From NCBI RefSeq assembly GCF_002305875.1, contig NZ_CP022098.1, positions 3,658,001 through 3,722,000 of the forward strand: 64,000 nucleotides of DNA, in the 5' to 3' direction. Positions 45,567 through 50,249 of this stretch are shown here, piece by piece (the stretch's first letter is position 1; the number at the start of each line of letters is the position of its first letter). Made by a program: the position numbers and the translations under genes. The notes under the pieces were generated by a model that had not been told where the DNA came from, made no database searches, and worked only from the letters and a program-made list of their open reading frames with translations. Source of the stretch: Cystobacter fuscus (GTDB lineage Bacteria; Myxococcota; Myxococcia; Myxococcales; Myxococcaceae).

Positions 45567-46151
45567 ATGACCCGTTCCAGCGCATTCCGCGTCCTGCTTG
45601 CCACCGCTGTCCTGCTCTGTGTGCCCGCGAGCGCCACCACCCTGCTCAAGATGGACCTGCCCGAGCTGTCCCACTCGGCCGATGTCATCGTCCACGGCAC
45701 GGTGCGCCGCATGGAGAGCCGGTGGAGCGGCGATCACCGCCTCATCGTCACGGACGTGGAGATCCAGGTGACCGAGTCCCTCAAGGGGCAGGCGAGCGGC
45801 ACGGTGCTCGTCACCCAGCGCGGGGGGGAAGTGGGAGATATCGGTCAGAAGGTGAGCGGCCTGGCCTCCTTCGCTCCGAACGAGGAGGTGGTGGTGTTCC
45901 TCGAGCGCCGCGGACCCGCCTTCCATGTCTCGGGCATGGCGCAGGGCAAGTACAAGGTCCTGCGCACCGAGGGCGAGACGCGCGCCATGGCGGTGCCGGA
46001 GTCCACCGGGGAGGCGCTCCTGCTGGACGCCAGGACGCACCAGACCGTCACCTCCTCACGCCCGTCCCTGCCGCTCTCGGACCTCAAGGCCGCCATCCGC
46101 GCGGCGCTCCAGCAGCCGGCCCCGATGCGCTCGCAGGAGAAGCGGCCATGA
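45567..46151 (+). CDS. Secreted protein of unknown function, first gene of the matrixin trio
   Basis: 194 aa with a clear signal peptide (FRVLLATAVLLCVPASA). The mature part starts LLKMDLPELSHSADVIVHGTVRRMESRW, followed by a beta-rich domain (VTDVEIQVTESLKGQASGTVLVTQRGGEVG) of the OB-like type common in secreted myxobacterial proteins encoded beside proteases. Catalytic residues are not evident. Its stop overlaps the next ATG (ATGA), so it is coupled to two matrixin-like proteases and may be their partner, inhibitor or chaperone; this role is inferred from position. Confidence 0.8.
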   Translation: MTRSSAFRVLLATAVLLCVPASATTLLKMDLPELSHSADVIVHGTVRRMESRWSGDHRLIVTDVEIQVTESLKGQASGTVLVTQRGGEVGDIGQKVSGLASFAPNEEVVVFLERRGPAFHVSGMAQGKYKVLRTEGETRAMAVPESTGEALLLDARTHQTVTSSRPSLPLSDLKAAIRAALQQPAPMRSQEKRP

Positions 46152-47068
46152 CGGTCACCACCGCCCTGCTCCTCTCCCTCGCCGTGGCGCAGAGCAGCCC
46201 CTATGTGCGCAGCCATGTGGACAAGGACGACTCGAGCACCCAGTGCCTCTTCTGGACGACGCCCACCCTCACCTGGAACCTGAGCAGCGTGGGCAACCCG
46301 GAGAGCGGGGACGAGCAGAAGCAGCACGAGTTCGCGGCCATCCGCGCCTCCTTCCAGAGCTGGCAGCGCATCTTCGAGGACTGCGGCAACCTGAGCTTCT
46401 CCGAGGGGCCGCTGCTCGACGAGCGCCGGGTGGGGTACGTGCAGAAGGCGGAGAACCACAACCTCATCCTCTTCCGCTCGCGGCGCTGCCGGGAGGTGGC
46501 ACCCTCCACGGACAAGTGCTGGGCCGAGGAGACGTGCGGCAACGTCTACGACTGCTGGGACAGCGATGATCGCACCATCGCCCTCACGCTCACCACGTAT
46601 GACCAGCGCTCCGGCATCATCTACGACTCGGACGTCCAGTTGAACGCGAGTGGCTTCGTCTTCACCACCGTGTCCAGTCCGCCCTGCGCCCAGCCCATCT
46701 CCAGCAAGACGCCCAACTGCGTGGCCACCGACGTGCAGAACACCATGACCCACGAGCTCGGCCACCTCATCGGCCTGGATCACACCTGGTTGAGCACCTC
46801 CGTCATGTACCCCCAGGCGCCCTCGGGGGAGATCACCAAGCGCATCATCGATGAGGGCTCGCGCGACTTCGTGTGCCGCACCTATCCCAAGGGGCTCGCC
46901 AGTCAGAGTTGCCTCACGCCCACGCTCAACGCGTCGTCCCCGGGTGACACCGCCTTCTCCCTGGGCAGACAGGCCGCGGGGTGTTCCACCACGGGCGGCG
47001 CGTCGTGGCTCTCCGCGCTGGCGGCCCTGGGCTGGCTCGGGTGGCGGCGCCGGGGAGTGCGCTCATGA
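46148..47068 (+). CDS. Matrixin-like metalloprotease with MYXO-CTERM tail (paralogue 1)
   Basis: 306 aa. A short hydrophobic start is followed by a metzincin domain with the complete zinc motif HELGHLIGLDH and a following Met (SVMYPQ) that fits the Met-turn. Several cysteines (CGNVYDCW, SPPCAQP) suggest disulfides. The C-terminus is a MYXO-CTERM signal: a Gly-Cys, a hydrophobic helix (SWLSALAALGWLGW) and RRR. Such tails direct surface anchoring and are processed by a CPBP-type intramembrane protease (myxosortase). Both ends overlap neighbouring genes as ATGA. Confidence 0.9.
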   Translation: MTVTTALLLSLAVAQSSPYVRSHVDKDDSSTQCLFWTTPTLTWNLSSVGNPESGDEQKQHEFAAIRASFQSWQRIFEDCGNLSFSEGPLLDERRVGYVQKAENHNLILFRSRRCREVAPSTDKCWAEETCGNVYDCWDSDDRTIALTLTTYDQRSGIIYDSDVQLNASGFVFTTVSSPPCAQPISSKTPNCVATDVQNTMTHELGHLIGLDHTWLSTSVMYPQAPSGEITKRIIDEGSRDFVCRTYPKGLASQSCLTPTLNASSPGDTAFSLGRQAAGCSTTGGASWLSALAALGWLGWRRRGVRS

Positions 47069-47991
47069 CGCGCCCGCTCGTGGTGATGGTGTCCGCGGCG
47101 CTCTGCCTCGCCGCGCCTCGCGCTGGGGCGCAGGTGTACCACCGCACCCTGGCCAAGGGCCGGCCCTTCTGTGTCTTCTGGCCCGGGCGCGAGTTCGTCT
47201 ACCGCCTGGACGCGGCGGGCAGCACCCGCACCCCAGGGAACTCCGAGTTCGCGGCCATCGAGGCCGCGGTGGAGTCCTGGCGCGCGGTGTCCGCCACCTG
47301 CAGCGACTACACCTTCCGCCGGGGGCCCGACATCGAGCACCCCACCGTGGGCTACAACGAGAACTCCGAAGAGAACGAGAACGTCATCCTCTTCCGCGAG
47401 CAGGACTGCAACGACGTCGTCCCTCCGGGCGACCCCTGCATCACGGCGAAGACCTGCGGCAACGTCTACTCCTGCTGGGCGCACGGCCCGGGAATCCTCG
47501 GGCTGACCACCACCACCTATGGCTTGAGCACCGGCAAGATCTTCGACGCGGACATCGAGCTCAACGCGGCCCCGGCGGGCAGGGGGTTCCTCTTCACCAC
47601 CGTGGACTCGCCGCCCTGTGATGACGTCCAGACCTCCGGGTGTGTCTCCGCCGACGTGCAGAACACGGTGACCCACGAACTTGGCCACGTCGTCGGGCTG
47701 GACCACGTCCCCGAACAGCCGGATTCCACCATGGAGCCCTCCGCGTCCCCGGGAGAGACGCACAAGCGCATCATCGACGTGGGCAGCATCGCGGGTTTCT
47801 GCGACGCCTACCCCCGGGGACTCCCGCCCACCCAGTGCGGCGAGAGCCCGGAACTCGGTCGCCGCTTCCAGGCGGTGTCCCACGTCCCGTGGTCCGGGTG
47901 CGCGGCGGCGCCCGGCGCCCTGCTGCCCGCGGCGGCGCTGCTCGGCGCGTGGGGACTCCGCCGACGGCGCGGGCGCACGCACGGCTCGTGA
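47065..47991 (+). CDS. Matrixin-like metalloprotease with MYXO-CTERM tail (paralogue 2)
   Basis: 308 aa with a signal peptide (VVMVSAALCLAAPRAGA). The zinc motif HELGHVVGLDH and Met-turn STMEPS are present. It shares with the upstream protease CGNVYSCW, LTTTTYG, SPPC, VQNTVTHELGH and KRIID, so the two arose by tandem duplication and have since diverged. The tail has Cys, a hydrophobic helix (LLPAAALLGAWGL) and RRRR, a MYXO-CTERM signal. It is convergent with the kinase-TonB gene. Confidence 0.9.
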   Translation: MTRPLVVMVSAALCLAAPRAGAQVYHRTLAKGRPFCVFWPGREFVYRLDAAGSTRTPGNSEFAAIEAAVESWRAVSATCSDYTFRRGPDIEHPTVGYNENSEENENVILFREQDCNDVVPPGDPCITAKTCGNVYSCWAHGPGILGLTTTTYGLSTGKIFDADIELNAAPAGRGFLFTTVDSPPCDDVQTSGCVSADVQNTVTHELGHVVGLDHVPEQPDSTMEPSASPGETHKRIIDVGSIAGFCDAYPRGLPPTQCGESPELGRRFQAVSHVPWSGCAAAPGALLPAAALLGAWGLRRRRGRTHGS

Positions 47992-48036: not shown

Positions 48037-50022
48037 TCAGCGCTCGCGGGGAGGCACCAGCCGGATGACGAAGGGGTAGTCCACCGCCGTCGGACGGCCG
48101 TCGATCACCATGGGCTTGTAGAGGCGCGCCTGCAGCGATTGCACCACCGCCTCGTTCATGTGCGGCAGGCCCTTGATGACGCGGCAGTTCTCCACGCTGC
48201 CCTTGAGCGTGATGACGCACTTGACGATCATCACGCCCGACACGCGCGCCGCGCGCGCCTCGCGCGAGAACACGATCTCCTTGCCCTGGATCTCCACCGG
48301 ACGGGGCATGCCCTCCTGGTAGGGCACGGGACCATCGGCCTTGCGCGTGTCCACCGCCGGGGCCATCGCCACCACGGGCACGGCCACCGCCGGCGTGCTC
48401 TTGGTGTCCGAGGGCGGGGGCGGCTCGGCCTCCAGCAGCACCGGCGCGGACATCGAGCCCACGGCCGCCGTCGACGAGGCGCCGCTCGAGCCCATGGCCC
48501 GCTCCACCCGGTTGGACGAACTTCCCCGGCTGGTTGCCGTGCGCACCCGCTGCATCTTCTGGGAGAACACCACCTCGCCCGAGCCGCCGGTGATGACCGT
48601 CTCCGGGTGGTAGCCGTCCAGCGTGAAGGTGAACTCGGCGGTGAAGGTGTCCTGGCCCTTGTCCTTGGGAATCTCCAGCAGCAGCGGCGTCGTGCCGCGC
48701 TCCTCTCCCTTGTAGAAGACGTGTGCTCCCGTGGGCTGGCTCATCAGCCGGAAGCGCACCACCGCATCCGCCGCGGGCTCGGCGGCGGGGGTGGCCTGGG
48801 GCGCCGCGGCGACCGCCGGCTCGCTCCGGGGCGCCGGTGCCTCCTTGAAGAGGCTCGAGGACAACAGCAGCCCTCCCGTCAGGAGCACCGCGATGCCTCC
48901 GCCCACGAGCCCTCCGATGAGCAGCGTGCGCCGGCGCGCCTTCTGGATGTCGGGCGGCACTTCCACGCTGATGTCCACCGCGAGCGTGTCTCCGCTCGAG
49001 TGGCTGTCCCCGGAGATGCCCGCGAAGAGCGGCGTCTTGTGCGGCCCGGTGGTGCTCTGTCCGCTCGGGTGCTTGAAGATGCCGCTGTGGCCGCCCGCCT
49101 CCATGCTGGCGGTGCGCAGGGCCTCCAGCAGCTCGTCCATCGTCTGGTAGCGGCGCGCCGGATCCTTCTCCATGCAGCGGCGCACCACCGCCTCGATGCC
49201 CATGGGCACGGAGATGTCCGGCCGCACGGAGCTGAACGCGGGGGGCAGCTCCTTGTGGTGGGCGAAGATGAGCTCGATGTGATCCTTGGAGACGAACGGC
49301 GGCCGGCCCACCAGCATCTGGTAGAGCACCACGCCGAGCGAATACACGTCGCTGCGCACGTCGGCTTCGTTGCGCGCCTGCTCGGGCGCCATGTACGCCG
49401 GGGAGCCCAGGAAGGTGCCGCTCTGGGTGATCTCCGGGTTGGGCGCGTTCTCCGTGACGGCGATGGACTTCACCAGTCCGAAGTCCAACACCTTGACGAG
49501 GTCCTGGTCGGCCTCGTTGAGCAGCATGATGTTGGCGGGCTTCAGGTCGCGGTGGACGATGCCCTGGTTGTGCGCCTCGCGCAGTGAACGGCAGATCTGT
49601 TGGGTGATGCTCAGTGCGCGCGCCCAGGCGATGGGACCCGACTCCGCCACGACCTGACCGAGGGTGCGGCCCTCGATGTACTCCATGGCGATGTAGTAGA
49701 TGCCGTCGTCCGTCTGTCCGTAATCAATCACCGTCACCGTGTTGGGGTGGCGGAGCTTGGAGGAGAGCGAGGCCTCGCGCAGGAAGCGCTTCTGGAAGCC
49801 CGGATCCTTGCTCGTGGGGAAGTGGGGATTGAGCACCTTGAGCGCCACCACCCGGTCCAGGGGCGTCTGCTTGGCGCGATAGACCCGGCCCATGCCTCCC
49901 ACACCCAGCGGCTCGAGGATGCTGAAGCGGCCGTTGAGCGTTCGCCCGATGAGGGGATCCGTCCCCGTATCACCTGGACCCTGTGAGTCGCCGGTCACCA
50001 TAATTTCGTCGTGCTCCCCCAT
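48037..50022 (-). CDS. Ser/Thr protein kinase fused to a TonB-type C-terminal domain
   Basis: 661 aa. The Hanks-type kinase domain (about 30-290) is intact: GVGGMGRVY, catalytic K62, HRDLKPAN (H157-D159), DFG 180-182 and SPAYMAPEQ. A disordered linker leads to one membrane helix (about 372-394), then a periplasmic part with a PEGA-like beta domain (TGAHVFYKGEERGTTPLLLEIP), a Ser/Pro linker and a C-terminal TonB_C domain (about 575-661, SGVMIVKCVITLKGSVENCRVIKGLPHMNEAVVQSLQ). The arrangement suggests signalling across the inner membrane coupled to outer-membrane receptors or envelope contact; partner proteins are unknown. Confidence 0.9.
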   Translation of the reverse strand: MGEHDEIMVTGDSQGPGDTGTDPLIGRTLNGRFSILEPLGVGGMGRVYRAKQTPLDRVVALKVLNPHFPTSKDPGFQKRFLREASLSSKLRHPNTVTVIDYGQTDDGIYYIAMEYIEGRTLGQVVAESGPIAWARALSITQQICRSLREAHNQGIVHRDLKPANIMLLNEADQDLVKVLDFGLVKSIAVTENAPNPEITQSGTFLGSPAYMAPEQARNEADVRSDVYSLGVVLYQMLVGRPPFVSKDHIELIFAHHKELPPAFSSVRPDISVPMGIEAVVRRCMEKDPARRYQTMDELLEALRTASMEAGGHSGIFKHPSGQSTTGPHKTPLFAGISGDSHSSGDTLAVDISVEVPPDIQKARRRTLLIGGLVGGGIAVLLTGGLLLSSSLFKEAPAPRSEPAVAAAPQATPAAEPAADAVVRFRLMSQPTGAHVFYKGEERGTTPLLLEIPKDKGQDTFTAEFTFTLDGYHPETVITGGSGEVVFSQKMQRVRTATSRGSSSNRVERAMGSSGASSTAAVGSMSAPVLLEAEPPPPSDTKSTPAVAVPVVAMAPAVDTRKADGPVPYQEGMPRPVEIQGKEIVFSREARAARVSGVMIVKCVITLKGSVENCRVIKGLPHMNEAVVQSLQARLYKPMVIDGRPTAVDYPFVIRLVPPRER

Positions 50023-50249
50023 CCCGCGTCCGGGTGGGAACCATTCTTCCAGGAAGTGGAGTCAAGCCATGAAACCACAACTCCCGGAAACACGCGACTT
50101 GGGAGCGGGTGCTTGCTCGGCCCCCGTCCTCGGGGTGCTCGCCGAGGGACCAGGGGGCGAGCGGGATGCGCGGCCCGCATTGACGGGTTCGGCGTGATCG
50201 GACTACCGTTCCATCCCTCCCCCCGCGGACTCGTTCAGGCGGGCCCGCC
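50023..50249. promoter_or_regulatory. Divergent region between the kinase-TonB gene and the Che4-type operon
   Basis: 227 bp expected to hold promoters for both directions. The only clear symmetric element is CTTCCAGGAAG at 50046-50056, close to the kinase start. No -12/-24 or -10/-35 pair could be assigned with confidence. Confidence 0.3.

Follow-up and report, generated by a model that had tools for sequence, protein, structure and literature searches.

The gene at 48037-50022 of the window (the whole 64,000-nucleotide stretch of Cystobacter fuscus DNA that we analysed) encodes a Hanks-type Ser/Thr kinase, a membrane helix and a TonB C-terminal domain in one chain. Comparison of this protein with its relatives indicates that one kinase chassis bears tails of at least two TonB systems, gained via fusion or replacement. 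The gene and its encoded parts lie in the window as follows.

48037..50022, minus strand: gene for the protein with kinase, transmembrane helix, PEGA-like domain and TonB_C domain, a single open frame of 661 codons
49129..49923, minus strand: Hanks-type Ser/Thr kinase domain, residues 34-298 (Pfam, 168.7 bits; catalytic residues intact)
48868..48939, minus strand: single membrane helix, about residues 362-385, glycine-rich and without histidine (hydropathy; AlphaFold2 helix at 357-384)
48553..48765, minus strand: PEGA-like beta domain, about residues 420-490 (AlphaFold2 model and fold search; Pfam PEGA in relatives only)
48058..48294, minus strand: TonB C-terminal domain, residues 577-655, with Cys602 and Cys613 (Pfam, model, fold search, cysteines)

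Architecture and conservation of the fusion

The initial annotation, made from the sequence alone, had placed a kinase, a helix and TonB_C in one chain, and Pfam matches above cut-off for Pkinase and TonB_C, the AlphaFold2 model and the fold search all bear this out; its coordinates were correct, and the strand, which it did not give, is the minus strand. Translation probably starts at residue 8 (Met, base 50001), because the residues N-terminal to it vary among relatives. Many assemblies read one and the same single frame, which rules out an assembly error as the source of the fusion. A scan for promoters and terminators was uninformative, returning no terminator and one weak plus-strand promoter match within the 5' portion of the kinase frame.

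Pkinase was matched at residues 34-298 with 168.7 bits against a cut-off of 31.7, and K62, E83, H157-R158-D159, K161, N164, D180-F181-G182 and P213-E214 are identical in all 14 aligned rows of the kinase domain. By its residues the Hanks domain is intact, with the catalytic lysine, HRD, DFG and APE all in place. The layout of kinase, helix and extracytoplasmic sensor is that of the PASTA/PEGA-type receptor kinases, and the PknB_PASTA kinase model matches the kinase part with 319.9 bits, below its cut-off of 450; the window protein differs from these kinases in having a TonB domain as its sensor, and neither Pfam nor NCBIfam found PASTA repeats in it. Matches to the query in the genome itself (12.35 Mb) number at least 154, nearly all of them to the kinase part, which points to a very large kinome.

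The assignment of the C-terminus to TonB_C stands by Pfam, which gave 41.9 bits at residues 583-651 for a cut-off of 24.6, but not by NCBIfam TIGR01352, whose 24.0 bits fall slightly short of 27.1. TonB_C was above the Pfam cut-off in all 19 fused proteins scanned. The structure prediction, which the initial annotation had suggested for this region, returned a confident TonB-like domain at residues 577-655, with pLDDT above 90 across most of it, and a confident seven-strand domain at 421-489, the linkers being of low confidence. Searched against the PDB, the tail retrieved TonB C-terminal domains, the best of which was FoxA-bound TonB (6i97 chain D, Z 10.8 over 88 residues, 2.4 Å), and TonB chains were also recovered by sequence with a profile of the C-terminal part (best E value 3.6e-06). 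The C-terminal domain is thus like that of the TonB energy transducers by profile, model and fold; the window protein differs from them in its N-terminal kinase and in a helix lacking the SxxxH motif.

The PEGA-like domain proposed in the initial annotation fared less evenly: a confident beta domain is present in the model and the fold search, but PEGA is absent from the Pfam matches of the window protein at E ≤ 10. Across 18 scanned proteins (the window protein and relatives), Pfam listed PEGA in 14 and placed it above cut-off in one (L045, 22.5 for a cut-off of 20.8). In the PDB this part resembles transthyretin-like domains with Z up to 8.3, a score that may reflect a merely common fold, and because many unrelated beta sandwiches were also matched, its fold is no guide to function.

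A match to the C-terminal 297 residues at E ≤ 1e-30 was found in 66 of 96 family genomes, although in several of these (for example G090 and G105) the listed matches span only query residues 1 to about 200 and end ahead of TonB_C; three further genomes (G056, G057 and G059) showed the gene when their loci were read, giving 69 of 96. Direct reading of the tail covered 43 distinct proteins, and also the loci of G087, G090, G099 and G105, a subset of the 66 genomes. Fused carriers include Archangium lansinium, A. violaceum, several Corallococcus, Citreicoccus inhibens and metagenome-assembled genomes (14 of 29 loci fused), and a fused kinase was found in all six further genomes: Pyxidicoccus fallax, Myxococcus dinghuensis, M. 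eversor and three Corallococcus. The many orthologs rule out the reading, raised beforehand as a way for the annotation to fail, that the fusion is an isolated case.

In the 14-row alignment, identity to the window protein averages 0.79 for the kinase, 0.64 for the PEGA-like part and 0.56 for the TonB part, with 0.29 for each linker. For three close relatives, the tail has dN/dS values of 0.21-0.28 compared with 0.63-1.60 in the linkers, from few substitutions. Two more distant pairs gave tail values of 1.25 and 0.60, which either run counter to steady constraint or are an effect of low synonymous change in GC-rich codons. Outside the family, a locus from another class of the phylum (L166:513-2738) encodes an unrelated kinase, 31% identical to the window kinase, followed by a helix and a TonB_C tail (52.9 bits). 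It was the one such case in 21 loci, chosen mainly by frame length, that were read among the matches listed, and probably represents a separate fusion event.

Tails from two TonB systems

The genome of C. fuscus has 16 TonB_C matches above cut-off, the kinase included. Reading of the translations divides the other 15 into five separate TonBs, four receptor-like proteins, three FHA-type proteins, one lipobox-type protein and two others, and Pfam confirmed FHA in both of the FHA-TM-TonB_C proteins that were scanned. Since TonB_C occurs in four receptor N-termini, three FHA proteins and one lipobox protein of the genome, the domain is not specific to sensing. The four receptor-like proteins (L140, L141, L142 and L143; G000:C1 at 9221462, 9746296, 11918601 and 11932083) carry TonB_C near the N-terminus and plug- or barrel-like sequence in one chain, and long frames like theirs recur across the phylum. 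The short lipobox-type protein (L053:5319-5951) has TonB_C with a cysteine pair as in the tails of kinase A, the type found in the window.

The window kinase tail is 54% identical to a TonB of the same genome (G000:C1:2586716; system 1). As read from the translations, one ExbB-like gene and two ExbD-like ones come after the gene of this TonB, and a large receptor-like gene diverges from it. Kinases of a sister group, B, and a kinase C from a metagenome-assembled genome have kinase and PEGA-like parts as in kinase A (the kinase of three B proteins is 66-67% identical to the window protein) and the tail of another TonB system. Their tails group with the TonB at G000:C1:12002859 (system 2), whose gene likewise has ExbB- and ExbD-like genes after it. 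Long-frame matches to system-2-type tails occur in 14 of 96 family genomes, of which seven (G014, G049, G082, G083, G084, G096 and G100) were read as kinases and the rest inferred from frame length. The neighbours of kinase B vary among the three loci compared.

In the tail tree, kinase-A and kinase-B/C tails group with different TonB systems. A single origin of all kinase tails was rejected with p-AU 2.8e-06 in an alignment that leaves out three FHA, three receptor and the L166 tails, and with p-AU 2.3e-60 in one with more rows, which took in four of ten system-2 TonB loci and five of six additional system-1 loci. A single clade was not rejected for the kinase-A tails (p-AU 0.307) or for the B/C tails (0.292), these clade tests being applied to groups named from a first tree. 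The kinase-domain trees, built from rows other than L007, L008 and L166, have long branches to the outgroup and are poorly resolved. A pair of cysteines 11 residues apart is present in all 14 kinase-A tails and in every row of the related TonB group (12 rows: 11 TonBs and the lipobox protein), and is absent from all four kinase-B/C tails and from the genome's own system-2 TonB. Because a single tail clade is rejected, and the cysteine pair agrees, the chassis has taken up tails at least twice, which in turn suggests TonB-type binding as a selected trait.

Adjacency to che4 and the MXAN_2680 position

The strongest context that we found, missing from the initial annotation, is a che4 chemosensory operon divergent from the kinase gene.

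50023..50249, no strand: intergenic region of 227 bases between the kinase gene and the divergent che4-type operon (a putative MrpC site is reported for the corresponding region in M. xanthus, PMC4320627)
50250..57362, plus strand: che4-type operon encoding CheW, CheR, MCP, CheY, CheW and CheA-CheY (Pfam; gene order)

The che4 operon of Myxococcus xanthus is MXAN_2681-2686, with the gene order of the window operon, and the mechanism of its chemosensory system is described as unclear (PMC3945109). Both che4 and MXAN_2680 are reported to have a putative MrpC site upstream (PMC4320627). On its other flank the window kinase has two genes of the NCBIfam MXAN_2677/MXAN_2678 family (390.8 and 361.5 bits, cut-off 250). 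These adjoining metalloprotease-family genes, at 46148-47991, have MYXO-CTERM-like ends, and protease and kinase genes are 45 bases apart in the window. In a genome of the genus Myxococcus, a frame with an HAD phosphatase-like start (DLDKT) lies between protease and kinase, at the position of MXAN_2679 (L180:3016-3795).

Flanked by the MXAN_2677/MXAN_2678 family and by an operon in che4 order, the window kinase sits at the position of MXAN_2680, which M. xanthus has between that metalloprotease family and che4 (PMC3945109 and PMC4320627). A Myxococcus-genus genome (G105) has a fused kinase at the MXAN_2680 position, and its CheW4b, CheY4, CheW4a and CheA4 have the published lengths of 188, 127, 194 and 848. 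The M. xanthus counterpart of the kinase thus appears, from gene position, to be MXAN_2680, for which we found no function in the literature searched, a body that has most subscription journals outside its coverage.

The operon's CheR was matched at E ≤ 1e-80 in 66 of 96 family genomes. In 58 of these 66 the kinase tail lies within 6 kb of CheR on the opposite strand, and three more found on reading loci bring the count to 61. Four others (G055, G063, G067 and G106) have kinase and CheR on different contigs, and in G053, whose che cluster is more distant, the fetched 8.4 kb, which end with the contig about 1.8 kb past CheW, contain no kinase. This conserved adjacency suggests a functional link of the kinase with che4, a link that is not obligatory, because four genomes (G009, G014, G079 and G108) have the kinase without a CheR match.

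Possible roles of the TonB tail

Our leading interpretation, held tentatively and at a little less than even confidence, is that the protein is a transmembrane Hanks receptor kinase that senses with a TonB domain from an ExbB/ExbD-partnered TonB, and that it reports TonB-box or envelope state. Judging from its length, the tail would span the periplasm with the help of the PEGA-like domain and two unstructured linkers, one of about 34 residues and one of about 80, and it may bind the TonB boxes, or another envelope partner, of the receptors served by the matching TonB. Binding would alter kinase-domain pairing via the glycine-rich helix and so change cytoplasmic phosphorylation, with an output that, given the gene neighbourhood, could bear on che4-regulated motility. 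The initial annotation had likewise proposed that outer-membrane transport or contact state sets kinase activity; the fusion on which it built is real and conserved, and the coupling is compatible with the evidence, in that the tail has the TonB fold and closely matches a TonB encoded next to ExbB/ExbD-type genes, and the linkers are of a length that could bridge the periplasm.

TonB domains of this genome are also found in receptors and FHA proteins, which makes passive tethering a serious rival: the tail would merely anchor the kinase at an envelope structure, such as peptidoglycan or an outer-membrane protein belonging to a machine, without reporting receptor state. The gliding-machinery protein GltG (PglI) offers a precedent, with a cytoplasmic FHA domain, one helix and TonB_C outside (PMC3169522), and the C. 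fuscus genome encodes three FHA-TM-TonB_C proteins. GltG differs in having FHA in place of the kinase and in contacting the motor protein AglR, and the tails of the FHA proteins of this genome form a separate group in the tree, whereas the kinase tails are nearest to TonBs beside ExbB/ExbD genes; we regard passive anchoring as possible, but doubtful. The tail might also serve only kinase pairing or stability, or recognise a small ligand in the periplasm, in either case unconnected to the outer membrane. TonB C-terminal fragments have been observed as dimers, and the glycine-rich helix appears to resemble pairing helices, as would befit a kinase that pairs, yet such a role leaves unexplained why one chassis took up tails from two TonB systems, and we consider it unlikely.

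Least probable, in our estimate, is that the kinase acts as a TonB in its own right, driven by ExbB/ExbD and engaged in both transport and signalling. Neither SxxxH nor any helix histidine is found in the 43 distinct fused kinases, whereas the same script found SxxxH in 11 of 12 TonBs of the group nearest the kinase-A tail (43 and 12 being the proteins that fit the script patterns), and the kinase helix, unlike that of TonB, is preceded by a cytoplasmic part of 360 residues. In the other direction, system-2 TonBs (L150 and L182-L211) have no helix histidine either (none in 30 loci, two of them truncated ahead of the helix), and the genome's own system-2 TonB is encoded beside ExbB/ExbD-like genes. 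As these TonBs also do without it, the missing histidine is no proof against driving; driving of the kinase-A tail is nevertheless unlikely.

Receptor kinases, TonB domains and the joining of a signalling domain to TonB_C are already known, the last from GltG (PMC3169522). The kinase-TonB_C fusion and the repeated recruitment of its tail from different TonB systems were not found in the literature that we covered, from which most subscription journals were absent.

Extending the receptor-kinase reading to a class is more speculative, and we would not bet on it: TonB-mimic receptor kinases would each read the boxes of one TonB and turn transporter engagement into Ser/Thr phosphorylation, tied here to a chemosensory system. 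FecA-FecR likewise carries the state of an outer-membrane receptor to the cytoplasm via an inner-membrane protein, and differs in relying on a signalling domain of the receptor and on an anti-sigma factor instead of a kinase-borne TonB domain. If the tail of the window kinase binds TonB boxes, it would link the state of outer-membrane transporters directly to phosphorylation in the cytoplasm, with no sigma/anti-sigma pair in between, and would provide a testable input beside che4, a chemosensory system. With two types of tail on one chassis, these kinases constitute a natural experiment in sensor specificity.
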